A stretch of 47,204 nt of DNA. It comes from Cyanobacteria bacterium RI_101 (GTDB taxonomy: Bacteria; Cyanobacteriota; Cyanobacteriia; Cyanobacteriales; Microcystaceae). Positions 26,138 through 41,648 of this stretch are shown in pieces. The stretch covers positions 1-47,204 of the forward strand of contig WGLZ01000005.1 in NCBI GenBank assembly GCA_016471375.1, in the 5' to 3' direction. Under the pieces are notes generated by a model that was not told the origin of the DNA, searched no databases, and was given only the letters and a program-made list of their open reading frames with translations. A program made the position numbers and the translations under genes. The stretch's first letter is position 1, and each line of letters starts with the position of its first letter.

Positions 26138-26155
26138 TACCCGGATTACGGAAAG

Positions 26156-26358
26156 ATTAAGCGCCCTAAAGTCCAGCCGAGAAGACCGAGGAGCAAAAAT
26201 CCCCCCAGCGCCGAACGGTTGAGGATTAACCCTTCCTCCACCAGCGCCGGGAAAGGAGAGACACCGTTAACCGACAGGGAAGCCAAGTTAACCCATTTTC
26301 CAAACGGGCGCTGAACCAGCCCCAATCGGTGTAGGGTTCCCGGCGGTGGCCCCCCTAA
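26156..26358 (-). pseudogene. Partial, internally deleted copy of the cbiB 3' end
   Basis: 26156-26250 matches 40600-40700 and 26262-26356 matches 40899-40991, both parts of the intact cbiB at 40587-41564, with about 200 bp missing between them and scattered substitutions. It has the same orientation as cbiB, so it forms a direct repeat with it across the island. It has no start and no open frame. I infer it is a duplication remnant left when the island was acquired. 26359-26387 is a short spacer. Confidence 0.88.
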
Positions 26359-26387
26359 GTGGCGCGCTTCATTCTTGAATCGGCGAT

Positions 26388-28175
26388 TTAAAAATGAAAA
26401 CTTGCTGAAACAAGAGGGCCATTAAATAATTCTGAAAAGCCAAAAGCATTAATTCCTGCGCCCGTTTTATAATTAATCTCATAGAAACGATAGCCCAATT
26501 GCAAGGAAATATTTTCTCTGACCCACCAATCCACGCCAAAGATTAAATTCCAACTATAATCAGTATCCCCTGATAAGCCAAAACCTGATATATCGCCGCG
26601 TAACCAGAGAGTAATGGGATCGGATAATTGTAATCCCAGTTTTGCTCCAACTAGGGGTTGCAACCAAAGTTTGCCAGCTTGAAGGGTATTTTGGCTTGCG
26701 CCTTGAATATTGACTAAACTGGTGGAGATGGTATAGTTAATTGTATTTTGAATTTGAATATTAATATCATTAAGTCGTACTCCTAAGATGGGCTGAAACC
26801 AAACGCGAGGAAATTCTTGTTCAGAAGGTTCTTTGGGTAAGCTAGAGGGGGGAGTATCACCGAAGTTATAGCTAATAGCAAAGTCATAAATTCCTTGATT
26901 GAACTGGAGACTGCTATCAATATCATTGTTGCTTTCTTGCGGCCCTCGATTCTCTTGGAAATTTTGAACTTTGTCGATCTTCTGTAATTCCTGATCAATT
27001 AAAGCCTGATCCTGTTCAATAGTGGCTTGCAATCTTTGTAGGGTTTCACTATCTTGAATTTGTTGTAATTCTTTAACTTTTTGGCTCGCCTCTTCTAAAA
27101 CAGCTTTGGTTTGTTGTAGATTTTGTTCGATTTGATCTAGGGTGGGAATGGTTCCTAGATTTTGGATCTGTTGTTGTAGGTCTTGTAATTGATCTGGGTT
27201 TTGGGCAACGGCGCTATTGAGTGCGATCGCAGATTTAAGTCCTTGATTGGCTTCGAGGGGGATACCTAGAGATTGAACCTCTTGAATTTCTGTGAATAAA
27301 GTCTCCAGTTTTTGCCCTTCTTGAGCTAAGGTCTCTTGAAAAGATTTAAAATCTGTTGCCAAGGTTTCTAACTGTTGAGCATCTTGAGCTAGAGTTGTTT
27401 GGAGGGCATTTACCTCTTGTTCAAGATTTTGGAGAATTGTACTTTCCTTAAGTTCTTCTTGTTGTTTCAATACCTGTACTTGCTGGTCTAGATGGTCAGC
27501 AACTTGCTGGACATTGGTGTTAATACCCTTACTTAAAACATAGTCCACCGCATTGATCGGGCTAGGTGTGCGAGTATTTGTTCGCTGAACACTATCAATG
27601 GCATTCAAATTGGCATAATAGCCATCGATAATAAATCCCCAATTCCCTTTCCAGGCTTCCACTCGACCACTGGCGGTTACGCTGAGATATTGTAATAATC
27701 GCCCCAGGCTCAGGCTGTAATTAACAGTCTCTCCTTTAACCGTTGCGCTTCCGTAGGTACTAATGGGAATGGTGGCATAGGGTTGGAAGACAAATTTCCA
27801 GCGAGTGCTATCTTCGACGGTTTGAATTTGTAAGGGTTCACGAACTTCAGGAGGGGAAACAAATTCAGGCGCCGGTAAAAATTTCTGAGAAACTAGCGTA
27901 TTTGATGTTGGCGATAAAATTTCTAGATCGGAGGCGCAGGCGCTCGTCGGCTCAGGGAATGGTTCTTCTTCTTTTAAGTTAGATTTAGTTGGCGCAATTG
28001 TATTTAGTTTTGGGACAAATTGATTGCATAAATTAGCGGATTTTTCCGGTGTGATTAAGGGAGGGATTTGAACAGGCTTAGCAAGCGTCGTTTGGGGAAA
28101 TAAGCCATAAAAACCGACTAAAATTCCTTGGATAATTAGGATTGAGTCAATGGAATTTATTCGATTTTTAGACAT
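26388..28175 (-). CDS. Outer-membrane beta-barrel protein with coiled-coil insertion
   Basis: A signal-like N-terminus (residues 10-32) is followed by a low-complexity spacer and the barrel opening WKFVFQPYATIPISTYGSATVKG (126-148), with EAWKGNWGFIIDGYYANL near 173-190. Residues about 222-405 form a long Gln/Leu/Glu coiled coil. Barrel strands resume (460-595) and the protein ends in VSASFHF, the terminal aromatic typical of outer-membrane barrels. The barrel half resembles a widespread porin-like family. A coil of this size inserted between strands is unusual and could reach the periplasm or the cell exterior. It is AT-rich and carries a HIP1 site. Confidence 0.72.
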   Translation of the reverse strand: MSKNRINSIDSILIIQGILVGFYGLFPQTTLAKPVQIPPLITPEKSANLCNQFVPKLNTIAPTKSNLKEEEPFPEPTSACASDLEILSPTSNTLVSQKFLPAPEFVSPPEVREPLQIQTVEDSTRWKFVFQPYATIPISTYGSATVKGETVNYSLSLGRLLQYLSVTASGRVEAWKGNWGFIIDGYYANLNAIDSVQRTNTRTPSPINAVDYVLSKGINTNVQQVADHLDQQVQVLKQQEELKESTILQNLEQEVNALQTTLAQDAQQLETLATDFKSFQETLAQEGQKLETLFTEIQEVQSLGIPLEANQGLKSAIALNSAVAQNPDQLQDLQQQIQNLGTIPTLDQIEQNLQQTKAVLEEASQKVKELQQIQDSETLQRLQATIEQDQALIDQELQKIDKVQNFQENRGPQESNNDIDSSLQFNQGIYDFAISYNFGDTPPSSLPKEPSEQEFPRVWFQPILGVRLNDINIQIQNTINYTISTSLVNIQGASQNTLQAGKLWLQPLVGAKLGLQLSDPITLWLRGDISGFGLSGDTDYSWNLIFGVDWWVRENISLQLGYRFYEINYKTGAGINAFGFSELFNGPLVSASFHF

Positions 28176-28271
28176 CCTACATTGCTCCTATTTTTGATTT
28201 CAGTAAGTATTTTAGTGTTTTAAAAGTTACTTTTTAGAACTTATTAAACAAAATTTAGACTTAAGCCTACA

Positions 28272-28769
28272 CTATCTTGCCGGCCCGCCATAACCCCCCG
28301 TCACTCCAACTCCGCGAGTTCCGGCGCCCACACCATGAAAACCGGGTTCAACGCCTCCCCCAGCGCCGATCCAATCAATAAATAAAGCCGTTGCGCCACC
28401 TGATACGGAAAGGGTGGCATTAGGGGGATCATTTTTGAAGTTGTCTGGCCCTGCTTTGGCTGTCCATTCATCGAAATAGGCGGGCATGGTCAGATTTCCT
28501 GCTACCCGTTGGGGGCGATCGGAAAAGTATAAAGTTTGTGGATTAACATTAATTAAACGAAGCGTTTTTTCCTTCGGGTTAGCTTTAAAATCTTCTGATG
28601 TTTGTACAAACATTAGCTGTATCTGTTGCGCAGAAGAAGTTTCCTGTTTTGAAGGCGTATTTTGGGCGGAGGTCGTAATGGGAAATCCCCAGCTAGTCAT
28701 TGTTAATAAAGAAGTAGTTAGGAGAAGAGCCGGAGTGATAACATTGTGAATGTTTTTAATAGAGTTCAT
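28272..28769 (-). CDS. Small secreted protein, SDRP/DPPNA family of unknown function
   Basis: From MNSIKNIHN the product has a signal peptide ending near TTSAQ. The mature part contains LMFVQTSEDFKANPKEKTLRL, then LYFSDRPQRVAG and W-x8-NFKNDPPNATLSV, a pattern I recognise from uncharacterised exported proteins often encoded near DUF1254 and sulfatase genes. The tail is Gly-rich (GGGVEPGFHGVGAGTRGVG). Function is unknown. ATG 28787 would add six residues. Confidence 0.65.
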   Translation of the reverse strand: MNSIKNIHNVITPALLLTTSLLTMTSWGFPITTSAQNTPSKQETSSAQQIQLMFVQTSEDFKANPKEKTLRLINVNPQTLYFSDRPQRVAGNLTMPAYFDEWTAKAGPDNFKNDPPNATLSVSGGATALFIDWIGAGGGVEPGFHGVGAGTRGVGVTGGYGGPAR

Positions 28770-28847
28770 GGTTAGATTGATCCTCAAAAATTGATGGTTG
28801 ATATTGACAAATCGATCGCTAACGGAATTGCCGATTTGGATTTAGCC

Positions 28848-29336
28848 TTAATGGCAACTACCAGTAAATGCTTCAGCGCCGTGTTTGATTTTAAATACTT
28901 GAAAGTTGTTGTTTAGGGTAAAACTGACGGGAGTGCCAGGCGCTGTTTTTCCGCTGAAAGTATTATTACCCTGATAGATCGTTGAAGCTCGACCGACCGG
29001 TTGCATTTCAGGTGGGCTACCCGTCACGCTATCGACAATAGTGAGGGTATTAGCCTGACTATCTACGACGACTAATTCCTCTGCCTCGACTGTTACCATT
29101 GATTCATTAATTGTCACAGAAACTGGCTGTTTTTTCTGGATTGAATTGTAATCAATAACCGAAGTATAGAGGTAAATTCTGTTTCCTTGGGTCGTTTTCC
29201 CTCTGGCAACACAGACAATTCCATTTCCCAGACTCGGCGTTTGGGCTAAGGTCGGTGGGATGGTTAGGCTAGACAAACCTAAAAGTGTGGAAAGAGCGAA
29301 GAAGACCGCTGAGGTGGATTTTTTGGATACAACCAT
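28848..29336 (-). CDS. Small secreted hypothetical protein
   Basis: Starts MVVSKKSTSAVFFALSTLLGL, with signal cleavage likely after PTLAQ. The mature 125 residues are beta-rich with no recognised domain and two Cys (one near the start, one in the final TGSCH). A CTTGCCATTTGGCGCCAA site sits 74 bases upstream, so it may be the first gene of a unit with the two genes that follow. ATG 29354 would add six residues. Confidence 0.6.
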   Translation of the reverse strand: MVVSKKSTSAVFFALSTLLGLSSLTIPPTLAQTPSLGNGIVCVARGKTTQGNRIYLYTSVIDYNSIQKKQPVSVTINESMVTVEAEELVVVDSQANTLTIVDSVTGSPPEMQPVGRASTIYQGNNTFSGKTAPGTPVSFTLNNNFQVFKIKHGAEAFTGSCH

Positions 29337-29409
29337 TGGGCTTTGAACAGGCAACTGTTGATAAATAACTTTCTCGCCTTAGACTATAGTTTATTTGGAA
29401 CGTCTTTTT

Positions 29410-29427
29410 CTTGCCATTTGGCGCCAA
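29410..29427. promoter_or_regulatory. Candidate AraC-regulator operator, site 1
   Basis: CTTGCCATTTGGCGCCAA lies 74 bases upstream of the small secreted gene that begins at 29336. It matches 16 of 18 positions of the site at 39627-39644 near the AraC-type gene. Two such long matches at the upstream ends of the two minus-strand blocks of the island suggest a shared regulator. Confidence 0.5.
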
Positions 29428-29483
29428 TTTAAAAAATTAAATGGCTTAGCTACCGATTCAGGAAACCTCGTAAGTCATAGAGA

Positions 29484-29706
29484 ACGATCGTCCCTCAATG
29501 TAAAAAATGATCGTCGTTTTCCCCGTTACTCCTCAATGATCGCCGCTTTCCCCTTTCTTCCCAAAAGCGATTGCCAATTTCCCGAAAAATTCACTCTTCC
29601 AAAATGATCGCCGTTTTTCCCTCAGCATACCAAAAGTGATCGCCACTTCCAATCCCATCTCCCACAAGCGATCGCCTTCTTAATCCCCACAAAAAACGAT
29701 CGCCAA
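29484..29706. repeat. Array of about eight HIP1-like (GATCG(C/T)C) units
   Basis: Units built on (A)nN(C/T)GATCG(C/T)CNNTTTCCC recur roughly every 24-37 bases, at about 29485, 29509, 29537, 29567, 29604, 29637, 29670 and 29697. One is GATTGCC and one is a full GCGATCGC. Isolated units recur at 30016, 30109 and 30138. No coding frame fits the array. It lies in the gap between two minus-strand blocks. Confidence 0.7.
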
Positions 29707-29767
29707 TTAAGGAAAACTTTGTAACTCTCACAAGTGATAGCACTACAAGATCTGCGATCACACTGTA

Positions 29768-29956
29768 TTAATTACAATTTTCTTTGCACCAATCATCCAT
29801 ATTTTTGTTAATTATATCTCCTTGATAGCAGGAGTATTGATAATTGTGCGTTAACAGATTTTTATTCGTATCGTTTAGGTTTTCATAAATAGAATTAGCA
29901 ACCATTGATGTAGAGAAATTTTTGTCATTTTCATACTTAATAATGGCAAGAAATGT
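29768..29956 (-). pseudogene. Possible remnant of an unknown gene's C-terminus
   Basis: Between a TGA (29957-29959) and a TAA (29768-29770) the minus strand is open for 62 codons and has coding-like composition: FLAIIKYENDKNFSTSMVANS early and QYSCYQGDIINKN later, ending DDWCKENCN. There is no early start codon. I do not recognise the family. The rest of 29707-30156 holds only repeats. Confidence 0.3.
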
Positions 29957-30012
29957 TCAAGATATGACTTGCATAACCATGGCAATCCAAAATGATTCGT
30001 AGTGAACAACAG

Positions 30013-30056
30013 TTTGATCGCCGCTCTCGTAGGTTAAGGAACGCAACCCAACCATG
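30013..30056. repeat. Dispersed GTAGGTT...AACCCAACC repeat, copy 1
   Basis: TTGATCGCCGCTCTCGTAGGTT followed by AAGGAACGCAACCCAACC shares its left arm with TGATGGCCGCTCTTGTAGGTT at 34119-34139. It resembles common cyanobacterial palindromic repeats. It lies about 140 bases after the sulfatase stop. Confidence 0.5.
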
Positions 30057-30156
30057 TAAGATGATAACCTCATTGTCGAGTTACTGCAATCATTCTCTCT
30101 GATGAAGTGCGATCGCCCTCTCCCTATTCGAGAAAAAGCGATCGCTAAAACTATCC

Positions 30157-32721
30157 CTACTCAGAAGCGGTATTGTTCCGTTGGGCAGTTTCAAGTTTCT
30201 TGATGTCTGCCGGTGACAGTTGCGGGCGATCAAGCTTCACCGTTAGCTTGTTGAGCTTGCCAGTGAAAGCGAATGGCGGCTGATAATCCGCGTCATTCAC
30301 CCCAGTCAGGGTATCGGAGCCAACGTCGAAGCTCTCATCCCATTGTAGGATCATCGGCAGGGTTTTGGGCATCGTCTTAGTGGCAACGACTTGGCCGTCA
30401 ACTTTGAGCGCGCCAGTTCCCGGGCGACCGACGCCGGAGAAGTCATTGAAGGCTAGCGTGCCAGCGCCGAGACCGTCGTACTTGAAGTCGAACTCCACCG
30501 TATGCTTACCGGGGGTAAGCGCTTCCGGCCCCTCCCACTTGAGTCGTTCGAGGTCAACCAGATTCCAGAGCCAGACCGGTTTACCCTTGAGCAGGTAGAA
30601 GCCATAGCCCCCAAAGCGCCCCCCGGAGGTCAGCAGAATGCCCTCAGCGCCGGCTTGGGGCACCTCAATGTCCGCCGTGACAGTATAGGAGGTGTTGAGC
30701 AAGAGCGGCGAATCCCCCTGGGGTAGGCCGACCATCGGACGGGTGTAAACGAACTCGCTACGGCCCGCCGTGATATTGGGTCGAGGGGCGACGATGCGGG
30801 CCGCAACCGAGGCGTCTAACGGTAAGACCTGGTACTTTTTAGCCTCCGCCAGAAACTCCTGCCTCATTTCCTTGACCTTCTGCGGGTTTTGCGCCGCGAT
30901 GTCCTGGGCTTGGCTGAAGTCCTCGTTAAGGTTGTAAAGCTGGAATACTTGGTTGTTCAGCGGATCTGGGTTGGCGGCTCCAAAGGCTTCCCAAGGCGCC
31001 CGATTCACCTGGGTGCTGAGAACCCAGCCGTCCTTATACAATGCCCACTGGCCCATCATTTCAAAGTACTGGGTAGTGTGGCGCGAGGGAGTCTTAGCAT
31101 TCTTGGAGTCGAAGGTGTAGAGGAAACTGGCGCCTTCGATCGGCGCTTGCTTAATGCCATCCACCACTTCGGGGGGGCGAATGCCTGCGGCTTCCAGGAT
31201 CGTTGGCACGACGTCGATCACATGGACAAACTGCTCCCGTAAAGCTCCTTTATCCTTGATGCGCGCCGGCCACGACACCACCATGTTTTGGTTGATGCCG
31301 CCCAGCCGCGACGCATTTTGTTTGAACCAGTCAAAGGGGGTGTCAAAGGCCCATGACCAGCCAGCCGACATGTGGTTGTAGGTCTGCTCAGTGCCCCAAA
31401 CATCGTAAAACTTAAGCTGTTCAGCGGCGGGTAGCTTATTCAATCCATTAAAAAAGGCGACCTCGTTTGGCGTACCCAGGGGGCCACCCTCGGCGCTGGC
31501 GCCGTTGTCGCCGTTGATGTAGATGATCAGGGTGTTGTCAAGCTTGCCGAGATCCTGGAATTGCTGAACCACGCGCCCGACTTCGTAGTCGTTATAGGCG
31601 CTGTAGGCGGCGAAGACTTCGACCTGACGAATGAAGAGCTTTTTCTCGTCCGCCGTAAGTTGATCCCAAGGTTTCAGGACATCACTGGGCCAGGGCGTTA
31701 ACTTGGCATCCTTGGGAATTACGCCCAGTTGCTTCTGGTTCTCGAAAATGCGATCGCGCAGTTTTTCATAGCCATCGTCAAACAAGTGCATCGAGTGAAT
31801 TTTGTCCACCCATTCCTGGGTCGGATGGTGGGGGGCGTGGGTGGCGCCAGGCGCGTACTTGATAAAGATCGGCTTGCTGGGATTGATCTGATTCATCCGC
31901 ATCATGTAATCGATCGCGTCGTCAGCCATGCCAGTAATCAGATTCCATTTTCCTTCCCGACCTTTGAAGGGATAAATCTGCGTCGTGTTGCGGAATAAAT
32001 TGGGTTGCCATTGATTAGCGTCGCCGCCGACAAAGCCATAGAAGTACTCGAAGCCCATGCCGGTTGGCCACTGGTCGAAGGGGCCGCTCTGACTAGCCTG
32101 GAACGCCGGCACGTTGTGATCCTTGCCAAACCAAGCGGTGGAATAGCCGTTGTCTTTAAGCATTCGACCGATCGTCGCCTTGTCTCGTTCGATGATGCTG
32201 TTGTAGCCGGGGAAGCCAGTGGACTGCTCGGAAATCACGCCAAATCCAGCGGAGTGATGATTGCGTCCGGTAATCAGCGCCGCTCGCGTTGGGGAACATA
32301 GAGCCGTCGAGAACATCCGGTTATAGCGCAAGCCCTCTTTGGCAATGCGATCCATAGTTGGAGTCGGAATCACACCACCGAAGGTACTCGGCACGCCAAA
32401 TCCAGCGTCGTCAGTGATGATCAGCAACACGTTGGGAGCCTCCTTTGGCGGCGCGACGCGGGGGGCCCACCAGGGTTTGGACTGTAAGGCGCCGTCCTTG
32501 ATTACACCGCCAAATGGGGGGGCGGGGGCCGGAAGTTGCTCCCCGCTGATGGACATCGTGGCGCTGGGGGAACCCGGTACGCCGTTGATTTTTTGGGCTA
32601 GGGCGGGAAACCACCAAAATCCAGAGGTAATGACCATTATCAGGGCGAGAAGTCCTGGGAGGATTGGCTGGAAACGCCCTGGCAGAAGGCGATCGAGAAA
32701 AGACTTTAGGGATCTGAACAT
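30157..32721 (-). CDS. Exported arylsulfatase (FGly-dependent)
   Basis: An S1-type sulfatase of about 854 residues. An N-terminal hydrophobic segment (LPGLLALIMVITSGFWWFPALAQ) predicts export. The metal site begins LLIITDDAGFG. The active-site CSPTR (Cys142 from this start) is the FGly consensus CxPxR, followed by LITGRNHHSAG. A C-terminal beta-sandwich domain (about 700-850) follows, with GGRFGGYGFYLLKGKPVW and KYDGLGAGTL. It hydrolyses organic sulfate esters after Cys is converted to formylglycine; an FGE is encoded in the same cluster. MFRSLKS is chosen over the ORF start 32787, which overlaps the preceding gene. The specific substrate is unknown. Confidence 0.92.
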   Translation of the reverse strand: MFRSLKSFLDRLLPGRFQPILPGLLALIMVITSGFWWFPALAQKINGVPGSPSATMSISGEQLPAPAPPFGGVIKDGALQSKPWWAPRVAPPKEAPNVLLIITDDAGFGVPSTFGGVIPTPTMDRIAKEGLRYNRMFSTALCSPTRAALITGRNHHSAGFGVISEQSTGFPGYNSIIERDKATIGRMLKDNGYSTAWFGKDHNVPAFQASQSGPFDQWPTGMGFEYFYGFVGGDANQWQPNLFRNTTQIYPFKGREGKWNLITGMADDAIDYMMRMNQINPSKPIFIKYAPGATHAPHHPTQEWVDKIHSMHLFDDGYEKLRDRIFENQKQLGVIPKDAKLTPWPSDVLKPWDQLTADEKKLFIRQVEVFAAYSAYNDYEVGRVVQQFQDLGKLDNTLIIYINGDNGASAEGGPLGTPNEVAFFNGLNKLPAAEQLKFYDVWGTEQTYNHMSAGWSWAFDTPFDWFKQNASRLGGINQNMVVSWPARIKDKGALREQFVHVIDVVPTILEAAGIRPPEVVDGIKQAPIEGASFLYTFDSKNAKTPSRHTTQYFEMMGQWALYKDGWVLSTQVNRAPWEAFGAANPDPLNNQVFQLYNLNEDFSQAQDIAAQNPQKVKEMRQEFLAEAKKYQVLPLDASVAARIVAPRPNITAGRSEFVYTRPMVGLPQGDSPLLLNTSYTVTADIEVPQAGAEGILLTSGGRFGGYGFYLLKGKPVWLWNLVDLERLKWEGPEALTPGKHTVEFDFKYDGLGAGTLAFNDFSGVGRPGTGALKVDGQVVATKTMPKTLPMILQWDESFDVGSDTLTGVNDADYQPPFAFTGKLNKLTVKLDRPQLSPADIKKLETAQRNNTASE

Positions 32722-32783
32722 GGTTGTGACATGGGTTAAGGAATGGCAATAAAGTAGGTTTTCTACTTCGCGAGTTGAATCAT

Positions 32784-34073
32784 TCAAGTTCTCAAAAGAT
32801 TAGGCGATTGCACTAATTCTCGATCCTCGATCATAGGCGGATGATGAATCATGATCAGTATAGAGACTACTACCACTGAGACAAACAGGATGGGAAAAAG
32901 AACACGAGTAGCTCGGTTGAACTTAATGGCTAGGGTCTCTGATTTTTCCGTGTAAAGCCAGATGTAAAGACAGGAACTCATTAAACTGACGACCAGCATC
33001 GTGATGGTGATTATAATGAGCAAATCCGTCATCGTCAAGTAATGCAAAATAGGTATCTGCTTCGCAAGGGAAAACTTCAGAGCGATGGTGGTGAGGATCA
33101 GTGTTAGAGTGCCGCCCAGCAGAGGCGAAGAATAGGCGGCGACCTTCCCTGGATCGATCCAGAGCAATGCGCAGGAAGCTAGGAAGATCACCAATAAGGG
33201 AATGAAAATAGTTAAGGAACCAGACCGAATAGACTCGTGATCCAGTCTCACCTGGAAAAGAATTTGGGAATAATTGACGCTACGATCATCGGAACGTTTG
33301 GCTGGCTTTTCCCGCGCTTTCATGCTCACAAAAGTCCAATGGCCCTGAATGAAATTATTGGGTTTAGAGGGATCTTGAAATTCAAAACGTTTAAGGCGGT
33401 AAACCATCTCGCGACGATCCTGCAAAAAGCCGGTCATAACTAGATTTAGGTCAACACTTCCGTAGGGATATAGGTGCAAATCGCCGTAAAAACGGGAAAC
33501 GCTATCGAACTTTTCGTAGAAACGGATACGCCCGTCCGGCCAAATGTTGACGGAGAAAACTCCGGTTTTACGTTCGCCCACTTCGTTGCTAATCTCGAAA
33601 ACGGGTTCCCAGATTTTTTTTAGCAATTCTTTCGCCGCATCGGCATCAAGATCCTGCGGTCGGTTCGGATGTTTGGGGTCTGGAGCGAAAGCAAGCCGGA
33701 AGTCTTTCCATTCCAAAATCATCTGGCCTGTGATTTTGTAATTTCCGGCGCTCAGATCGATGTCCGAAATATCGTCAATGACAAAGGAGACATCCACTTT
33801 TGTCGGATGATTCGGATCAGGAGAGGTATTGAGATTGACCTTGGTGTTGGAAGGCTGAGACTCAAAAGCCGAAAGAGGCTGCACCGCACAGAACATGAAA
33901 ATCGCAATGAGTATCAGCCTAAGCATCTGCGAGAGACTTGTAGTCCGAAACTGCCGAGCAATGTCCCTAAGAGGATGGTTGAAAAATTTAACTCGACGGC
34001 TAAAAGTCTTGCTTTTTCGTGGAGCAATAATGGCTAAAAGCCCTATTTTCTCCTTACGCCTAACCCTTTCCAT
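32784..34073 (-). CDS. Pentameric ligand-gated ion channel (prokaryotic Cys-loop receptor homologue)
   Basis: Residues about 70-280 form the extracellular ligand-binding domain (VDVSFVIDDISDIDLSAGNY, ILEWKDFRLAF). The loop equivalent to the Cys-loop, FYGDLHLYPYGSVDLNL, lacks both Cys, as in GLIC and ELIC. Four transmembrane helices follow: TM1 near 286-308, TM2 312-334, TM3 346-374, TM4 388-410, with the TM2-TM3 loop IPILHYLTMTD. A signal-like helix lies at residues 50-70. ATG 34073 is preceded by AGGAG at good spacing, giving a long basic leader; ATG 33926 (MLRLILIAIF) is the alternative. Ligand and ion selectivity cannot be read. Confidence 0.85.
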   Translation of the reverse strand: MERVRRKEKIGLLAIIAPRKSKTFSRRVKFFNHPLRDIARQFRTTSLSQMLRLILIAIFMFCAVQPLSAFESQPSNTKVNLNTSPDPNHPTKVDVSFVIDDISDIDLSAGNYKITGQMILEWKDFRLAFAPDPKHPNRPQDLDADAAKELLKKIWEPVFEISNEVGERKTGVFSVNIWPDGRIRFYEKFDSVSRFYGDLHLYPYGSVDLNLVMTGFLQDRREMVYRLKRFEFQDPSKPNNFIQGHWTFVSMKAREKPAKRSDDRSVNYSQILFQVRLDHESIRSGSLTIFIPLLVIFLASCALLWIDPGKVAAYSSPLLGGTLTLILTTIALKFSLAKQIPILHYLTMTDLLIIITITMLVVSLMSSCLYIWLYTEKSETLAIKFNRATRVLFPILFVSVVVVSILIMIHHPPMIEDRELVQSPNLLRT

Positions 34074-34115
34074 ATACACTCCTAAATATTTAATCTAAGC
34101 TATAATAACTCGCTA

Positions 34116-34175
34116 GTATGATGGCCGCTCTTGTAGGTTGGGTTTTGTCACTTCAATCCAGCCTACAAAATCGGC
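34116..34175. repeat. Dispersed GTAGGTTGG...CCAGCCTAC repeat, copy 2
   Basis: GTAGGTTGG and CCAGCCTAC form imperfect inverted arms between the DUF1254 gene and the ion channel gene. The left flank TGATGGCCGCTCTT matches the copy at 30013. It might attenuate transcription between the two genes. Confidence 0.5.
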
Positions 34176-34193
34176 TTTGATAACGAGTTAAGA

Positions 34194-35801
34194 CTATTTC
34201 AATAACTCGATTTCCCCTGGTCGCCAAGTCTTGTCAAACCAAGGCTCAAGCGGGCCGTAAAGCCGAAGAATGGTGTTCCAACCTGTTTCAGGAATGGTTT
34301 GCACCCAATTATTCTCCTTGCCAGTAGGCGGTTCCGGGCCGAAATAGATATCCACAGAGCCATCGGCATTAACCAACAGCCCTTTAGTCTGACTACCGAC
34401 GCTGGGAAACTGTTGATCCGTCTGAATTTGCGATCGCGTTTGGTTACTGTAAAGAATCACCGACCAGAAATCTTTAACGGGAATATTGGGCGGTAAATGG
34501 AGGCGATAACTCTTGCCGCCATCGAGGGGATTCCCCTGAGCGTCACGAGCTGTCCAAGCATATTGAGAACCCAGTCCAACCATTTTTTCTTCCATCGCAG
34601 GAGTCACACCCGTTGCCATGAAATAGTAATAGATATAAGCATCCATGTTCAGCACATCAGGCTGGGTCTGGAACTTATAGCCACCAATGAAAGGTAACTG
34701 CCAAGCGCTATTCGGATAATAATAAGCCTCCTTCTGTCGATTATCAAAGACGATCGCCCGCGCCGTCGCATCTCCCACTGCCGCCGATTCCGTCAGGATT
34801 TTTTTCATGCGTTCATCGGGTTGGAAAGGTTTGCCTTTTTGAATACCAATTGAGGCGTAGTAACCCAGTCGAATTTGATCGAGAGATTCACTCGGTTCTT
34901 CCTGTACCGCTTGATTGAGCAGTTCCCAGAACCGATAATCGGCGGGCGCAACTGTATTAAACGGCTTACCCGACATATCCACAAAATTTAAAGCGGGGGG
35001 ATTGTTGACGCTGTTGAGAGGATAAATTTTAGTATTCTTTGTCACCAACTCAACCCCAGGTTTAGGGTCGCCCTTGACCAAAAAACTACGCCAGGGAATC
35101 CAAATATTAAAGGTCGGCGATTTCACCGCGTTGTAACCCGATGGAATTTCTCCTTTGTAGCCTGGGGGTAAAAACAGGTACTTTCCGCCTTCGCCTTTAT
35201 CAGGGCCAGTAATGCCCACATCGATCACCCAGCGAAACCACATATCATTAACGGTTCCTAACACTTTCGGCGGGACTTCTAAAACCAACGGCCCCTGCGA
35301 GAGATCAAGCCATGTCCAACTGTAAACGGTGTTGTCATTGGCAGTCAGGAAAATTGAGCGCGAATCCAAAAGTTGCTCAAAAATCGGCACAACGGTATTT
35401 ACAGGCCCCAAAGTCCGAATCGCGTTACGGTTAGCCGCTTGACTAACCGCGGGTATTGCCAATAAGTAAGCTTGAACAGCTCGTTGGAAGTCGAGGTTAT
35501 CATAGAGCTTTTCAGTCGTCGCCTTGTCGGGAAAGCCGTCAAAGAAATTGAGCGTTCCTAAACGAGTCTCTACTTTATCGGGGGAAGCAATTCCTGGGGG
35601 GAGGGGGGTTGAGAATTTTAGTTTAGGATTAGCGGGAGAACCCGTTAGAGATTGGCCGTTGCTGGGGGAAGACATCATAATTACACTGGTAGAGACAACA
35701 ATAAGGGCTAAGGCCGTCATTGATAACCTTTGCGCTTTCCTCGCTGACGAAAATCCTTTGGATAAAGGGCGATTAAGTAGAGATTTTAGATTTTTGAACA
35801 T
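34194..35801 (-). CDS. Exported DUF1254/DUF1214 domain protein
   Basis: A 535-residue protein with a basic leader MFKNLKSLLNRPLSKG and a hydrophobic signal segment near residues 29-45. The DUF1254 domain (about 60-220) includes FQRAVQAYLLAIPAV and NDNTVYSWTWLDLSQGPLVLEVP. The DUF1214 domain (about 400-525) includes SYRLHLPPNIPVKDFWSVILYS and the ending WNTILRLYGPLEPWFDKTW. Both domains are common in bacteria and of unknown biochemical function. Its leader resembles that of the sulfatase (MFRSLKSFLDRLLPG), hinting at a shared targeting route. Confidence 0.88.
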   Translation of the reverse strand: MFKNLKSLLNRPLSKGFSSARKAQRLSMTALALIVVSTSVIMMSSPSNGQSLTGSPANPKLKFSTPLPPGIASPDKVETRLGTLNFFDGFPDKATTEKLYDNLDFQRAVQAYLLAIPAVSQAANRNAIRTLGPVNTVVPIFEQLLDSRSIFLTANDNTVYSWTWLDLSQGPLVLEVPPKVLGTVNDMWFRWVIDVGITGPDKGEGGKYLFLPPGYKGEIPSGYNAVKSPTFNIWIPWRSFLVKGDPKPGVELVTKNTKIYPLNSVNNPPALNFVDMSGKPFNTVAPADYRFWELLNQAVQEEPSESLDQIRLGYYASIGIQKGKPFQPDERMKKILTESAAVGDATARAIVFDNRQKEAYYYPNSAWQLPFIGGYKFQTQPDVLNMDAYIYYYFMATGVTPAMEEKMVGLGSQYAWTARDAQGNPLDGGKSYRLHLPPNIPVKDFWSVILYSNQTRSQIQTDQQFPSVGSQTKGLLVNADGSVDIYFGPEPPTGKENNWVQTIPETGWNTILRLYGPLEPWFDKTWRPGEIELLK

Positions 35802-35859
35802 GCTTTTTACATCAGAAGCTTTCAGAAAAAACGGAATTCAAATTGGCAAAAGAAATTAA

Positions 35860-36210
35860 TTAATTCTGTGGGGGAACTAGTCCACACTCGAACAACTTAG
35901 TAAGGACAGGAGTAGAAATTTGATCAAAAAACTGTTGGGTTAACTGAGGATCTTGCCGCAATTTTTGGATAAACCGAGCCGTAAGCTGGTCTTTAAGCGT
36001 ATTGGGATCTTTTTTGCCTTGAGCCATGGAAGTCGCTAAATCTTGACAAGATGAAGTACTAAATTTTTGAATAGTTTTTTGGGCGATTGCGTTAACCACT
36101 TCACCCTCTAAGGGATCTTGCCCCTGAGCCAGGGAAGGACTAACACTTCCCATCGAAAAAAGGGCGATCGTCAACAGTAACTGAAACGGGACAAAAGATA
36201 ACGTTTTCAT
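35860..36210 (-). CDS. Small secreted helical protein
   Basis: The 116-residue product has a signal peptide (MKTLSFVPFQLLLTIALFSMGSVSPSLAQ). The mature part is helical, with two Cys that could form one disulfide (SSCQDL and FECGLV). It resembles small periplasmic proteins of unknown function. It lies 58 bases upstream of the DUF1254 gene on the same strand. Confidence 0.65.
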   Translation of the reverse strand: MKTLSFVPFQLLLTIALFSMGSVSPSLAQGQDPLEGEVVNAIAQKTIQKFSTSSCQDLATSMAQGKKDPNTLKDQLTARFIQKLRQDPQLTQQFFDQISTPVLTKLFECGLVPPQN

Positions 36211-36284
36211 TCTGAGATTGCCTCAATAGAGTTAACAAAAATGAAGGAAAATTGAGCTGAAAAATAGACAAAAATTCAAGATGC

Positions 36285-37031
36285 TTAAGGCGCGGGAACC
36301 ACACGGTAATAAACACCATTAGCGCCGTAGGAGGGACTAAACCAAACCCCGTTGTAGAGGTAATAGGTTGTACTACCAATGGTCTGGATAGCGGCGCCTG
36401 GGGGTAGGGTAGGATAAATTGCTCCCATCGCATAGGCTGTACTTGAGGCTCCCGCAGCGTAACCTTCCGCATAGGTGTTGGCGTTAGCGGCGCTAGCGGC
36501 TGTCGCTCCGATTACCGCGCCTGTGGCCGCGGCGCCGGCGGCATACCAACCGCCACAATTGACACAACCGGTTGAGTAGGTATTGACGACCGTTGGGGGA
36601 TGATAAGCGCCGTAATAAGCTCCGCCGTAATAATGGTCAACTCCCCCATAGGCCGTCGCTCCGTAAGCGCCTGTGGCGCTCCAGGAGCCATCGCCCCCCG
36701 ACGCGGTTCCCCCATCGGCGCCGTCAGCGTGCCAAGAGCCATCTCCTCCCGAGGCCGTTCCGCCGCGATAACCGGTACCGCTCCAGGAACCGTCGCCCCC
36801 GGAGACCGTACTACCTCGAAAGCCCGTGCCGCTCCAAGAGCCATCGCCTCCCGACGCGGAACCGCCGCGATAGCCGCTAGCGCTCCAAGAGCCATCGCCC
36901 CCGGAGGCCGTTCCTCTGGCTCCGCTGGCGCTCCAGGAACTGCTACTACCGTGAAAATAGGCTTGGGCCGGACTTAAGTGAAGTGTGGCTAAGAAAAGAC
37001 TTGCCAGACTAATCGCAATCGTTTTTTTCAT
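36285..37031 (-). CDS. Exported Gly/Ser-repeat protein
   Basis: Start MKKTIAISLASLFLATLHLSPAQA is a clear signal peptide. Five tandem 17-residue units of the type ASGGDGSWSxxGxRGGS follow, then a Tyr/Ala-rich stretch with CVNCGGWYAAGAA, and a conserved-looking end, YYLYNGVWFSPSYGANGVYYRVV. The C-terminal part resembles short exported proteins encoded near DUF1254 genes in other bacteria. The repeats suggest a structural or adhesive role, which is inference. Confidence 0.7.
   Translation of the reverse strand: MKKTIAISLASLFLATLHLSPAQAYFHGSSSSWSASGARGTASGGDGSWSASGYRGGSASGGDGSWSGTGFRGSTVSGGDGSWSGTGYRGGTASGGDGSWHADGADGGTASGGDGSWSATGAYGATAYGGVDHYYGGAYYGAYHPPTVVNTYSTGCVNCGGWYAAGAAATGAVIGATAASAANANTYAEGYAAGASSTAYAMGAIYPTLPPGAAIQTIGSTTYYLYNGVWFSPSYGANGVYYRVVPAP
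36654..36908 (-). repeat. 51-bp tandem repeat, five units, in coding sequence
   Basis: The five units encode the GGDGSW repeats. Unit length is exactly 17 codons, and the units differ at both DNA and residue level, with most divergence in the fourth (HADGADGGT). Confidence 0.85.
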
Positions 37032-37060
37032 CAGATTCACCTTTGTATGAGAAGAATAAA

Positions 37061-37927
37061 CTAGGGTTTAGGCGCCGGTTTTTGCTCAAGGGGTTCGGGT
37101 TCGGGGCGCTTAAAGGGGATGGGTTTGGCTCCATTGGCGCGGGTCGAACTAAAGCTATCAGCCGGAATGGGCCCGTCTAACTGCCAATTAGAAAACGCCA
37201 CTTGATGCCTTAGTCGCAAAGGATCATCCCGATAAACCGCCCGAATCATACGGGGTAATTTGTCCTTTTCTCCAATCCAAATTTGGGCAAAAACCTTATC
37301 AGTGGCGATCGCAATCATATCGGTAGTTGTGCCGTCAATGACTTGGGATTGCCCGATATAAAAGGCAGTTTTTAAATCTCCCGCAATATCTCCGTAGGGA
37401 TTGGCCACTAAAAAATCCATAAAGGGAAAATAAATGGCCGCTGTATCGTAGGCAAATTTTAACGCTTGATCAATGGTGCCAGGAGCCTCGGCAATCGCCA
37501 CTAAATTTTCCGCAGGCGCAAAAGCTACCAAGGTCTTGCCGTTGTAATAAAACTCCGAAGCGGGGCCATCTCCAGGGGAGAGAACTTGTAACTTATTTGG
37601 TCTTTGCAAAATCACATTGGAAAGGGTGTGATAGGCCAAAGCTGGCCCCAGACGACTCGGATTTTCGTAGGTTGTAACCGCCGTAAATTGTAAAGTGCGA
37701 GCTTTTGCCAAGCGATCGCTCATCGCTTTAAGCATTTCAATGGCTTTTGGCTCCAGATTTTTTTGGGGGTTAGCCGCAATCAAGGAGGGAGTAAGCAGAG
37801 TGGTTTGGGAGAAATTATCCGCCTTCACCTTCGGGATCAAAAAACTGCTACTAATCAGAGGAAGCGCGACTAAGAATAGGGGAGTAATCAATAGTCTCAA
37901 AGAAAATTTAGGAAAAATTTTAGGCAT
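37061..37927 (-). CDS. Exported DUF2092 protein
   Basis: A signal peptide (LLITPLFLVALPLISSSFLIPKVKA) precedes a LolA/LolB-like fold of the DUF2092 family: EPKAIEMLKAMSDRLAKARTLQFTA, RPNKLQVLSPGDGPASEFYYNGKTL and PADSFSST near the end. The family is predicted periplasmic, possibly binding lipids or hydrophobic ligands (inference from fold). The ending is Pro/Glu-rich. It begins 13 bases after the FGE stop, so the two are co-transcribed. Confidence 0.82.
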   Translation of the reverse strand: MPKIFPKFSLRLLITPLFLVALPLISSSFLIPKVKADNFSQTTLLTPSLIAANPQKNLEPKAIEMLKAMSDRLAKARTLQFTAVTTYENPSRLGPALAYHTLSNVILQRPNKLQVLSPGDGPASEFYYNGKTLVAFAPAENLVAIAEAPGTIDQALKFAYDTAAIYFPFMDFLVANPYGDIAGDLKTAFYIGQSQVIDGTTTDMIAIATDKVFAQIWIGEKDKLPRMIRAVYRDDPLRLRHQVAFSNWQLDGPIPADSFSSTRANGAKPIPFKRPEPEPLEQKPAPKP

Positions 37928-37940
37928 AAATATTCATAAA

Positions 37941-38915
37941 TTATTGCAGGCTAGAAGCTAGACGAAAACCAATATGGGAAGTTCCCGTATCGGGGGATTG
38001 GGCTTCCCTAGCAGAGGGACGATACCGACTGCAATAATTGGGGGCGCATAAAAATGAGCCTCCTTTAATCACGTGTTTGGCAACGCCTGAATTGCGAGGA
38101 TCAAAACTTGCTTTTTCGTTGTTCACAACCGGGTCAACTTGATAGGCTTGGCTATCATGGCCCCATTGATACCAGTCCTGTGTCCATTCCCAGACATTCC
38201 CCGTCATATCGTAGAGTCCATAACTGTTGGGGGGAAAAGAACCCACGGTCGCCGTTCCCCAATAACCGTCTTCTTCAGTATTTTTGACGGGAAATTCTCC
38301 CTGCCAAGTATTGGCTTTTTTGGGGTTATAAGTGTTTCCCCAAGCAAAAATCTGATCTTTTAAACCGCCTCGCCCCGCAAATTCCCATTGAGCCTCTGTG
38401 GGTAAGGATTTTCCTGCCCAGCTTGCATAGGCTTGAGCGTCTTCAAAGGCAATATGAACGACGGGATGATTTTCTCTGCCTTGAATCGTACTGTTTGGCC
38501 CTTCAGGATGTCGCCAATTCGCTCCCTGTTGCCAATGCCACCAACTTAATTCTTCAATTGGTTTTCCTGGGGGTAACGCTTGAAAAATGACAGAACCCGG
38601 CGCTCGCTCTTCGTCCGTTAGTTCAGGAAATTGTTCTTTCGATAAGGGTCGTTCGGCAACAGTACGATAACCTGTCTCTTTCACAAACTGGGCAAATTGA
38701 GCGTTGGTTATTTCATAAGCATCTAGACAAAACGGGCTAACCGTAACCGCTTCGGCTGATCGTTCCTCTGGCCATTGATTATCGGCGCCCATGCGAAAAG
38801 TTCCTCCGGGAATTTTCACCATCCCGTCAGGACAGGCCCATGCCGTCGGACTCAGAATCAGCCAAGCGCCGATTGTCAAATAAAAGATCCATAATTGCTT
38901 AGAAAATGCAACCAT
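37941..38915 (-). CDS. Formylglycine-generating enzyme with signal peptide
   Basis: A SUMF1/FGE-family protein of 324 residues. The hydrophobic start (WIFYLTIGAWLILSPTAWA) predicts export. The core shows MVKIPGGTFRMGADNQWPEE, CLDAYEITNAQFAQF, LPTEAQWEFAGRGG, YDMTGNVWEWTQDWY and GGSFLCAPNYCSRYRPSAR. Cys290 and Cys295 occupy the positions of the catalytic pair of true FGE, which separates it from EgtB-like and PvdO-like relatives. It would activate the CSPTR sulfatase of this cluster. An exported FGE is uncommon in bacteria, where the best-known forms act before export. Confidence 0.88.
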   Translation of the reverse strand: MVAFSKQLWIFYLTIGAWLILSPTAWACPDGMVKIPGGTFRMGADNQWPEERSAEAVTVSPFCLDAYEITNAQFAQFVKETGYRTVAERPLSKEQFPELTDEERAPGSVIFQALPPGKPIEELSWWHWQQGANWRHPEGPNSTIQGRENHPVVHIAFEDAQAYASWAGKSLPTEAQWEFAGRGGLKDQIFAWGNTYNPKKANTWQGEFPVKNTEEDGYWGTATVGSFPPNSYGLYDMTGNVWEWTQDWYQWGHDSQAYQVDPVVNNEKASFDPRNSGVAKHVIKGGSFLCAPNYCSRYRPSAREAQSPDTGTSHIGFRLASSLQ

Positions 38916-38924
38916 AAAATTTCT

Positions 38925-39422
38925 TTATTCCTTTGATTGCGGTGGTTTAAAGAAAAACTTGCTAAGATTACCTTTGCCTAAATAGCAGTCAAGTTCCTGG
39001 AAAATGTTATGAATTAGGAAAACGGTTGAGACACAGAGGAGGATCGCTAAAAAACGATCAAAACTGCGGGTTTCTAGAAATAACATTAGGGCAGAACCTA
39101 ATGCTTTAGTTTTGTGGTAAGCATGAAAAAGATTTTCAATCAAACTTAACACAAAAACAGCAAAGGTATAAACCGCGGTTTTGTAAAGAACTTGAAGATA
39201 ACGAGGAGAGCCGTCAAAACGATTCATCCAGGGAGTCATATCCATAATGGCGACGGATTTAGCTGAAACTAAGGCATAAATCACAACCTTGGCAAAAATA
39301 CTGACATCAACCGAAAACTCCTTGAGAAAAAGCTTCATTATAAGGAGAATATACCCATAGCCAATAAAGAAAAAAAGACTAAGAGAGCCAATTTTCTTGA
39401 GTTCACGTTTTAGTGATTCCAT
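38925..39422 (-). CDS. Four-helix inner-membrane protein of unknown function
   Basis: From MESLKRELKKIGSLSLFFFIGYGYI there are four predicted helices, with AKVVIYALVSAKSVAIMD and YLQVLYKTAVYTFAVFVL in the middle. The pattern resembles small membrane proteins found beside DUF1254 genes in other bacteria. The ORF extends upstream to 39461, but the first 13 residues look non-conserved. It is the first gene of the minus-strand block and starts 205 bases from the candidate operator. Confidence 0.65.
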   Translation of the reverse strand: MESLKRELKKIGSLSLFFFIGYGYILLIMKLFLKEFSVDVSIFAKVVIYALVSAKSVAIMDMTPWMNRFDGSPRYLQVLYKTAVYTFAVFVLSLIENLFHAYHKTKALGSALMLFLETRSFDRFLAILLCVSTVFLIHNIFQELDCYLGKGNLSKFFFKPPQSKE

Positions 39423-39626
39423 AATCCTTAACTTACGCTGTAACCGCGTCCCTGCATGCAAGCTGTCCAGGCGCGATAATAGATTTGTAGTCGTTGTTGT
39501 TCAGTTGCATTGGCTTAGAATACTTTGGAAAGGGTAAACTCTCAAGAGAGAATTGGCGTTCCAATAAATATAACTGGCTTATTAAATATTCTCTCTGGCA
39601 AGAATACACAACTGGAATAACTTTTG

Positions 39627-39644
39627 CTTGCCATTTCGTGCCAA
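39627..39644. promoter_or_regulatory. Candidate AraC-regulator operator, site 2
   Basis: CTTGCCATTTCGTGCCAA sits in the divergent gap between the four-helix membrane protein gene (minus) and the AraC-type regulator (plus). An inverted half TGGCAAG is at 39599-39605. It matches the site at 29410-29427 except at two positions. I infer an operator. The rest of 39423-39782 shows no gene. Confidence 0.5.
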
Positions 39645-39782
39645 GTCATAGCCAACCTCAGTGATTCGGCGCACACTTCGGTTAATTTTCCCCTTCTAAT
39701 GGGAGTTGGAGGGGAAGCTATCTGAATTGCGCTCAGGAATCATCTCAGCCTGCTATGCTATGGGGAAGGAGTGAATCTTTAG

Positions 39783-40580
39783 ATCAAAACTTATAGTGCG
39801 TACTATTCCACTTATACGATTCTAAAGGATTTACAGGCATTCGGTCGCCTCGTCTGTGAAGCGACTACCCTCTATGAGACGATCGCTGTTGCCATTAGAG
39901 TTATGCGGATATTTAACGCCCAGGAGTGTTTTTGGTTAGGGCAAAGGGGCGATCAAGTTTGGTTTGGACAGCAATTTACCCAACTTGATGGAGACTCCCA
40001 CCATGCTTCCCACTTTTCACTGACGCTCATGCTAAAGTTAATTCGTCAGGCGGCTGGTAAAAATTGGCGCCCTCAAGAGATATATCTGCAAACCCCTTAT
40101 TTGGGAAATATTCGTGACCAGTCCCTGTCCCAAGCTCGGATTAATACAACTCAAGGCTTTTCCGCCATTGTTTTCCCCCGTAGGTTGTTGAGTTTACCTC
40201 TGTGCCCTGTTACGGAGACTGACTACAATTTCGATTACAACCTCCTCCTTGCCTCTGCCCCTCCCCTCAGTTTTGCCGATTCCCTACAACAGGTGATTGC
40301 CCCCTTTCTCAAAGAACGCTATCCCTCTGTCCAACTAGCCGCCAATTTGTCCCAAATGAGCGTGCGCACCCTACAGCGCCGCCTGACGGAAGACCAACTT
40401 ACCTATTCCCAGTTGGTCGCCCGTTTGCGCTACCAAAAAGCCGTCCAACTCCTTGGCGATAGCCGAATGAAAATTATTGATATTGCCATCGAGCTAGGCT
40501 ATCAAGACGCCGCTCACTTCACCCGCGCCTTCAAACAATGGTCAGGAATGGCCCCTCAGCATTTTCGCCGCCAAAGCTAA
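39783..40580 (+). pseudogene. 5'-truncated AraC-family transcriptional regulator
   Basis: The frame is open from 39783, just after a TAG, and homology starts before the first ATG: ILKDLQAFGRLVCEATTLYETIA precedes MRIFNAQECFWLGQ (ATG 39903). The N-terminal third of the arabinose-binding-like domain is missing. The C-terminal DNA-binding domain is complete, with two helix-turn-helices (LAANLSQMSVRTLQRRL and IIDIAIELGYQDAAHFTRAF). Translation from ATG 39903 would give 225 residues with a damaged sensor domain. Whether it still regulates the divergent cluster is open. It ends 6 bases before cbiB. Confidence 0.7.
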
Positions 40581-40586
40581 ACCCCT

Positions 40587-41564
40587 TCAGAATCTTGTGA
40601 TTAAACTCCCTAAAGCCCAGCCGAGAAGACCGAGGAGCACAAATCCCCCCAGCGCCGAACGGCTAAGGATTAACCCTTCCTCCACCAGCGCCGGGGTCAG
40701 AGAGCGCCGGGGTTCCCCCAAAAAGGGCTTGCGTTTTACTTCTCCCTGATAACGATTTTCTCCCCCGAGTTGGACGCCTAACACCGCGGCGAAGACTCCC
40801 TCGCTCCAACCGGAATTGGGACTGGGATCCTGGGGCGCGTCCCGTTGACAAAGGGCTAAAACCTGGCGGGGGCGCCGGGAAATAAGGGCGAGGATTAACA
40901 CCGTTAACCGACAGGGAAGCCACGTTAACCCATCCTCTAAACGGGCGCTGAACCAGCCCCAATCGGCGTAGGGTTCCCGCCGGTAGCCCACCATGGAGTC
41001 TAGGGTGCTGGCGGCTTTGTAGGCGAAGGCTAGGGGCAAGGGGCCGACGCCGGGAAGGAAACTACCGAGGAGGGCGTAGAAAAACGGCGCTGTGACGCCG
41101 TCCACGGTATTTTCCGCCAAACTCTCCAGCGCCGCCCGGAGAATGTCGGTTTCGTTTAAAGATTCGGTGTCTCGGCCGACAAAATAGGCTAGGCGCCGGC
41201 GCGCTAAGGGTAAATCCCCTTGGTTTACAGCGTCTAAAACTGCTTGAACCGCGGCGGCTAAACTTTGCCCCGCTAGGCAACTGGCCAGCCCGATGATTTC
41301 TAGGGTTAAACCGAAATAAGGGTTAATATTTCGGGCGAGGGTCACGGTTAATCCCGCTCCCAGGGCGCTGGCGCCGATGACGGTCAGGGCCAGGAGCGCG
41401 CCGCCCAGTTTCCGGGGCCAGCCGGGTTGGAAGCCCTTTAACCCTGCTTGAGTCAGGACGTCGATCAACCAACCCATGACCTGCACCGGATGGAGCCAGG
41501 CGGGGGGATCGCCGAGCCAGCGGTCGAGGAGAACGGCGCCGAGCCAGACCAGAGGGGTTTCCAT
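40587..41564 (-). CDS. cbiB: Adenosylcobinamide-phosphate synthase
   Basis: Integral membrane enzyme (CobD/CbiB family) that attaches aminopropanol to adenosylcobyric acid in cobalamin synthesis. Motifs are LLDRWLGDPPAWLHPVQVMG near the start, GRDTESLNETDILRAALESLAENTVDGVTAP, and ASTLDSMVGY. Start MET (41564) is preferred over 41606 because the psaFJ terminator (41569-41594) lies between them. The product is 325 residues. Part of its 3' half is duplicated at 26156-26358. Confidence 0.93.
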   Translation of the reverse strand: METPLVWLGAVLLDRWLGDPPAWLHPVQVMGWLIDVLTQAGLKGFQPGWPRKLGGALLALTVIGASALGAGLTVTLARNINPYFGLTLEIIGLASCLAGQSLAAAVQAVLDAVNQGDLPLARRRLAYFVGRDTESLNETDILRAALESLAENTVDGVTAPFFYALLGSFLPGVGPLPLAFAYKAASTLDSMVGYRREPYADWGWFSARLEDGLTWLPCRLTVLILALISRRPRQVLALCQRDAPQDPSPNSGWSEGVFAAVLGVQLGGENRYQGEVKRKPFLGEPRRSLTPALVEEGLILSRSALGGFVLLGLLGWALGSLITRF

Positions 41565-41568
41565 GGCC

Positions 41569-41594
41569 AAAAAAAGACCCCAGACAGACTGGGG
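41569..41594 (-). terminator. Rho-independent terminator of psaF-psaJ
   Basis: On the minus strand CCCCAG-TCTGT-CTGGGG (41594-41578) forms a perfect 6-bp stem, followed by TCTTTTTTT. It lies 55 bases after the psaJ stop and just before the chosen cbiB start. Confidence 0.85.
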
Positions 41595-41648
41595 CGCACT
41601 AAACACTCACTTTACAGTTACTCAAGGCTCTATACTGACAGATTCCGC

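Follow-up and report, generated by a model that had tools for sequence, protein, structure and literature searches.

Type I sulfatases, exemplified by the structures 1hdh (Pseudomonas arylsulfatase) and 7all, combine domain PF00884 with a C-x-P-x-R modification motif and the DD and DNG motifs, and formylglycine-generating enzymes (FGEs) such as SUMF1 and structure 6s07 have domain PF03781 and a cysteine pair. One review names the cytosol as the usual location of Cys-type sulfatases (PMC3920027). Pentameric ligand-gated ion channels (pLGICs) of prokaryotes, e.g., GLIC, form another group, and the chemoreceptor operons described by Tasneem et al. (PMC549065) pair such a channel with a solute-binding protein. 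Here, we analyze a stretch of 47,204 nucleotides (nt) of Cyanobacteria bacterium RI_101 (contig WGLZ01000005.1; hereinafter, the window), in which genes for a sulfatase, an FGE, and a pLGIC lie close together on the minus strand. With a probability of roughly 0.6, we interpret the locus as a horizontally moved desulfation island that holds a channel gene of separate origin.

The sulfatase gene (30157–32721, minus strand) belongs to an open reading frame (ORF) that remains open to 32787, the ATG at 32721 being the probable start. The product matches PF00884 (E = 8.6e-51; 173.5 bits against a curated cut-off of 25), and its C/S-x-P-x-R motif reads CSPTR at residue 164 (32284–32298). With its relatives in the Protein Data Bank (PDB), 7all and 1hdh, it has in common the domain, the modification motif, the DD and DNG motifs, and a co-encoded FGE, and it differs from these by a signal peptide and by a C-terminal extension of about 230 residues past the 1hdh-matched part. 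The FGE gene (37941–38915, minus strand) encodes a PF03781 domain (E = 1.1e-81; 274.7 bits) with the cysteine pair CAPNYC (38031–38048) aligned with that of 6s07, and the models of sibling enzymes EgtB, SenA, PvdO, and GldK in NCBIfam all score under their cut-offs. Domain and cysteine pair are shared with 6s07 and SUMF1; unlike these, the island FGE has a signal-like N-terminus (hydropathy score 1.95).

The export of both proteins was assessed by the hydropathy of the part N-terminal to each catalytic domain, i.e., by a hydropathy rule and not by a signal-peptide predictor. It covered 38 stretches that contain an FGE as well as a sulfatase gene, namely the window and 37 loci, plasmid records among them, and was repeated at four thresholds. 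At least two of these stretches, L168 and L170, yield identical N-termini. The scores are bimodal, with a gap between 1.05 and 1.93 for FGEs and between 1.13 and 1.85 for sulfatases. When the cut is placed between the groups, both proteins look exported in 26 pairs and cytoplasmic in five, while the sulfatase alone looks exported in six pairs and the FGE alone in one; the status is thus concordant in 31/38 pairs (Fisher P = 0.005, ignoring descent). Signal-bearing FGEs occur in 27/38 nearest pairs, the island pair counted, and 26 of these 27 stand alongside an exported sulfatase, while five of the six cytoplasmic-looking sulfatases are paired with a cytoplasmic-looking FGE. All six pairs of an exported sulfatase and a cytoplasmic-looking FGE come from one sulfatase family (f16), and in the sole pair with only the FGE exported (L069) the start of the sulfatase is doubtful. 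At a threshold of 2.0 the four counts become 24, 6, 7, and 1, and the island FGE falls on the cytoplasmic side. The pairing of signal-bearing FGEs with exported sulfatases suggests that formylglycine may be formed outside the cytoplasm. Since PMC3920027 assigns Cys-type sulfatases typically to the cytosol, exported Cys-type sulfatases accompanied by exported FGEs deserve testing; among the titles and abstract openings listed by literature searches aimed at exported FGEs, we recognized no paper describing one.

The sulfatase–FGE core recurs in other cyanobacteria. We examined 108 stretches, 88 of which contain a long sulfatase at 200 bits or above; many of them end at contig ends, and the counts given here ignore descent. 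The most frequent partners of the long sulfatase in the 88 stretches are the FGE (43), a homologue of bile-acid symporters (27), a DUF1254 protein (23), a separate shorter sulfatase (20), and a 595-residue protein encoded at the left end of the island (19). Less frequent are an AraC-type regulator (11), the small protein s171 (8), a DUF2092 protein (7), a four-helix membrane protein (5), a Gly/Ser-rich repeat protein (4), and a small protein of 116 residues (2), while another small protein, s168, has no homologue in the 88 stretches. A recount confirmed these figures except that for the shorter sulfatase, where the recount leaves overlap in. The sample is biased by selection, as a hit to DUF1254 or to a pLGIC was the basis for choosing the first 20 stretches, of which the eight with the sulfatase all have DUF1254. 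In the 60 stretches picked by the sulfatase only, the FGE was found in 33, the symporter in 21, the 595-residue protein in 12, DUF1254 in 11, AraC and s171 in four each, and DUF2092 and the four-helix protein in one each. Based on these counts, the FGE is a firm partner of the sulfatase and DUF1254 a frequent one, whereas DUF2092 and the remaining proteins are occasional.

The genome G065 of the same genus (locus L067) contains the FGE, the sulfatase, two DUF1254 proteins, DUF2092, the Gly/Ser-rich, small, and four-helix proteins, and a full-length AraC gene, and no channel. A further copy of the module is located on a plasmid of Synechocystis sp. B12 (L137:7435–14598), where the frames of the FGE, DUF2092, and sulfatase genes are interrupted and an IS200/IS605 gene adjoins. 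The sulfatase–FGE core, often with DUF1254, constitutes a recurring and apparently mobile desulfation cassette. A second set comprises genes for DUF2092, the four-helix protein, full-length AraC, the small and Gly/Ser-rich proteins, DUF1254/1214, and a protein resembling the 595-residue one, the sulfatase being absent from the stretch (L108:4344–12130); elsewhere in that genome (L107:6187–11101), the gene for a shorter sulfatase is close to a radical-SAM/SPASM gene whose product may be an anaerobic sulfatase-maturing enzyme. In Ruegeria sp. THAF33 (L139:7797–12811), the gene for an arylsulfatase 68% identical to that of the island has a divergent AraC gene in front of it and, behind it, one small gene and then a mechanosensitive-channel gene, i.e., another channel close to this type of sulfatase.

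The pLGIC gene (32784–33926, minus strand) lies in an ORF open to 34079. It probably starts at the methionine codon at 33926 and not at the GTG at 34079, because DNA homology to its closest relative (L113, described below) starts within the signal peptide. By the hydropathy rule, the product has five hydrophobic stretches, a signal peptide and four helices; the ligand-binding domain (PF02931, E = 3.1e-12), the four-helix channel domain, and the pattern of channel helix M2 place it in the Cys-loop superfamily. Its closest PDB relatives among the best 60 matches are GLIC entries and a GLIC–GABA-receptor chimera (E = 4e-18 to 2e-16), while the NCBIfam subfamily LGIC_1 does not include it (95.7 bits against a cut-off of 500). 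In a hand-counted register with M2 starting at SSPLLGG (33111–33131), the island channel shares with GLIC and other prokaryotic pLGICs the ligand-binding domain, the four helices, and the M2 residues Leu 9′ and Pro 23′. It differs from GLIC by a four-residue insertion ahead of M2 and by the lack of an acidic residue at −2′/−1′, and its Pro-loop reads YPYG, compared to YPFD in the GLIC-like channel L010. The insertion and the lack of an acidic residue are common to the island channel and its relatives L113 and L114 in the alignment, in the same register; the missing acidic residue alone is no group marker, since several other cyanobacterial channels also lack it. Position 0′ is occupied by Arg in both relatives and by Leu in the island channel, whose residues 2′ and 6′ are Gly and Thr, respectively. 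The ratio of nonsynonymous to synonymous divergence (dN/dS) between the island and L113 channels is 0.108, with dS of 1.42 being near saturation, and this ratio indicates that both genes have been under constraint. The island channel adjoins a sulfatase and not a solute-binding protein as in the operons of Tasneem et al. (PMC549065), and no PBP or Cache domain was found next to it or fused with it among the island genes scanned by Pfam.

The distribution of the channel differs from that of the core. None of the 88 long-sulfatase stretches yielded a pLGIC with five query sequences, and no sulfatase, DUF1254, FGE, or DUF2092 gene was seen among the displayed neighbors in 26 pLGIC-centered stretches (20 viewed with three genes on each side, plus six others). 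In the cyanobacterial class, a pLGIC match is present in 37 of 388 genomes (E of 1e-3, own genome included), the best non-self match being 36% identical, and a long sulfatase in 72, with at most two sulfatase candidates scored per genome; among the places listed, the two lie within 20 kb of each other only in the genome of RI_101, and the next closest pair is 27 kb apart (G320). An earlier note on this DNA had treated the channel as part of the sulfatase module and proposed conserved neighborhood as a check. The sulfatase, FGE, and DUF1254 genes do recur together; the channel, missing from the G065 module and from the stretches listed above, joins them in its own genome only, among the places examined.

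In its own genome, the channel query matches only itself, and no orthologue was found in the family, where 14 of 50 genomes have a match, or in the order, where 20 of 320 have one at 1e-12; both counts include the own genome, and the best other match in the order is 29% identical. A scan of 84,980 species, one genome each, retrieved two relatives, L113 (75.5% identity over 367 codons) and L114 (35%). The L113 channel gene (755–1885) belongs to a metagenome-assembled genome and lies beside genes for SRP54, a response regulator, and DUF885, with Lnt genes further off. The GC (guanine plus cytosine) content of its region is mostly 45–54%, compared to 57–63% in the adjoining genes, so that the channel gene may have arrived from outside in that genome as well. 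The best sulfatase match in that genome is 34% identical, and DUF1254 has no match in it, a negative of little weight. Within the phylum of this genome, 13 of 387 genomes have a channel match (G427 included), the next best being 24% identical. Collections of plasmids, phages, and viral contigs gave no match for the island channel, nor did the plasmid collection for the L113 channel. A rare pLGIC subfamily whose pore lacks acidic residues has apparently been passed on, one gene at a time, between bacteria that are only distantly related. The L114 channel (Cyanobacteria bacterium FACHB-63, L114:5221–12964) is located 91 bases behind a gene for a globin/nitric-oxide-synthase/reductase fusion on the same strand and precedes two genes, one for a GAF protein and one for a solute-binding protein, so that synthase, channel, GAF protein, and solute-binding protein form one gene row.

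The genomic context points to an insertion. A decayed and an intact copy of cbiB flank an island of about 14 kb (26356–40587) that is richer in AT; in 2-kb bins, the GC content is 41–55% over 26–40 kb and 52–60% in the rest of the window, save for the first (47%) and last (42%) bins. Two direct repeats link the ends of the island, 26155–26260 with 40599–40704 (91%) and 26249–26355 with 40886–40992 (88%). The right copy lies inside the intact cbiB (40587–41606, minus strand; PF03186), and the left copy is a decayed cbiB piece (26155–26355, minus strand) that retains codons 204–240 and 302–336 and has lost codons 241–301, as identified by tblastn with CbiB. The locus thus shows both the deviating composition and the flanking repeats expected of a genomic island. 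Since the cbiB repeats mark its ends, the island takes in three more genes (26388–29354) and a divergent AraC gene, and the unit probably reaches, past a gap of 802 nt, to 26388 on the left and to the AraC gene (39903–40580, plus strand) on the right. The latter is 5′-truncated, being devoid of about 78 N-terminal residues of its 333-residue homologue; tblastn with intact homologues places the start of homology near 39822. The sulfatase is 91.6% identical to the copy in G065, 93.6% to that in G426, and 81% to a Microvirga plasmid copy, compared to 54–63% for CbiB among genomes of the same genus, a single baseline gene. At the DNA level, the identity to G065 is 86–89% for the sulfatase and DUF1254 genes and about 68–79% for the other shared genes, with one short s171 stretch at 83%; these differences among genes characterize the island as a mosaic, which may have moved as one piece. 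Outside the island, an ORF running off the end of the window (46763–47204, plus strand) contains HTH_33 and HTH_23 domains and resembles the start of a transposase gene.

Inside the island, eight ORFs run from 39461 to 30157 on the minus strand, and ORFs, Pfam domains, and hydropathy agree with the closely spaced set of eight parts given in the earlier note. Its reading of them as an enzyme–activator desulfation module with accessory exported proteins is likewise supported by the recurrence of the core across cyanobacteria. The run begins with the four-helix membrane protein (38925–39461; 178 residues, four hydrophobic stretches by the hydropathy rule). Downstream of the FGE gene are the genes for the DUF2092 protein (37061–37927; E = 2.6e-59), the Gly/Ser-rich repeat protein (36285–37040), the 116-residue protein (35860–36210), and the DUF1254/DUF1214 protein (34194–35801; E = 3.8e-29 and 2.8e-33), the last three products being probably exported. 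These are followed by the pLGIC and the sulfatase. The DUF2092 protein has a weak LolA-like match in NCBIfam (E = 0.008; 15.6 bits, the cut-off being 255), and its best E-value in a profile search of PDB was 0.72. The DUF1254/1214 protein is related in sequence, over residue 74 through the C-terminus (E = 8e-79), to VPA0735, whose PDB entries 2p3y and 3vb9 label it as uncharacterized. The four-helix, Gly/Ser-rich, and 116-residue proteins have no Pfam family, nor do the products of the three genes beyond the sulfatase, all on the same strand: s168 (28848–29354) and s171 (28272–28787), both probably exported, and the 595-residue protein (26388–28175), probably exported and located in the outer membrane. 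Scans of the window with Rfam and for tRNAs gave no match. A promoter scan was uninformative (23 found against 18.2 expected, standard deviation 3.7), and terminator-like sites numbered 8 against 17.4 expected. A sulfur-sparing composition was also considered and rejected: Cys plus Met make up 0.3–3.9% of the island proteins and 1.5–2.8% of three chromosomal neighbors, hence nothing in these proteins points to an adaptation to scarce sulfur.

Under the interpretation of the locus as a transferred desulfation island with a channel of separate origin, the sulfatase would be exported, the co-encoded and probably exported FGE would convert Cys164 of the sulfatase by oxidation into formylglycine once outside the cytoplasm, and the activated enzyme would strip sulfate from an external sulfate ester. 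The DUF1254/1214, DUF2092, small, and 595-residue proteins may take part in handling the substrate or product or in letting it in. The pLGIC gene, sitting between the DUF1254 and sulfatase genes, would have been gained singly from another lineage; it may share the transcript of its neighbors and not necessarily their function, the product most likely working on its own in the inner membrane as a chemically gated channel. The pairing of enzyme and activator is supported and the coupling of channel and sulfatase is not, because the core recurs without the channel and the L113 orthologue lies among housekeeping genes. Several observations count against this interpretation. No integrase or transposase was recognized in the island by a Pfam scan of its genes and inspection of smaller ORFs by eye, and the cbiB regions of four genomes of the same genus are not syntenic with the window and so offer no empty site for comparison. 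The scan of 84,980 species, being built on two short peptide patterns, may miss relatives, and a neighbor on one side of the L113 channel may be missed, since the contig begins 755 bases upstream of it. Finally, 14 of 388 genomes have both a pLGIC and the sulfatase, against 6.9 expected (Fisher P = 0.003, ignoring genome size and descent); our assessment stays the same, as no controls back this excess and the pLGICs involved are other, distant ones.

Next in plausibility, at perhaps one chance in a handful, is that the channel came with the insertion, has no role, and will decay as the AraC gene and the remnant of cbiB have done. The truncation of the former and the position of the latter at the border agree with that, as do the sporadic distribution of the channel and the replacement by Leu of the basic 0′ residue of M2 present in both relatives. 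Yet the ORF is of full length, with its signal peptide and four membrane helices, and the orthologues show constraint, though this possibly predates the transfer.

It seems rather improbable that, along the lines of the earlier note, channel, enzyme, and activator are encoded in one operon and the channel senses the sulfate ester or the released product and signals to the cell. The channel, enzyme, and activator genes do share a strand, with 62 nt between the channel and sulfatase genes; the only two terminator-like sites listed for the minus strand in 26000–40000 are both inside genes; and the intact channel gene with its low dN/dS and the uncontrolled genome-level co-occurrence would fit as well. 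On the other hand, no second genome with an adjacent pair was found in the places examined, the family and order searches returned no channel orthologue, the module of G065 does without a channel, and the L113 genome has neither a close sulfatase relative nor a DUF1254 match. In addition, the gaps along the run from the four-helix end are 9, 13, 20, 74, and 58 nt, and then 267 nt precede the pLGIC gene, which is therefore the gene behind the widest gap of the run. Among titles and abstract openings, no paper was found that joins DUF1254 with a sulfatase, or pLGIC, cyanobacteria, and a sulfatase, and the three papers pairing any two of DUF1254, pLGIC, and sulfatase were unrelated, judged by title. 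We give very little credence to an anion-type channel that would be opened by the sulfatase substrate or product and pass sulfate or another anion over the inner membrane, as the absent acid at −2′/−1′, Gly 2′, Thr 6′ (which may resemble glycine-receptor pores), and the 0′ Arg of both relatives may favor it, but that Arg is Leu here, several other cyanobacterial channels lack the acid too, and the neighborhood is not conserved; if true, a homologue of neurotransmitter receptors would for the first time be paired with a sulfatase activated in the periplasm.

The transferred-island interpretation tells a recurring cyanobacterial desulfation core apart from a neighbor, the channel, that is not part of the core elsewhere. 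The signal-bearing FGEs that accompany exported sulfatases would move the formation of formylglycine outside the cytoplasm, contrary to the typically cytosolic Cys-type sulfatases of PMC3920027. The pLGIC, if transferred as a single gene, would provide a natural test of the function of bacterial pLGICs in a new context.

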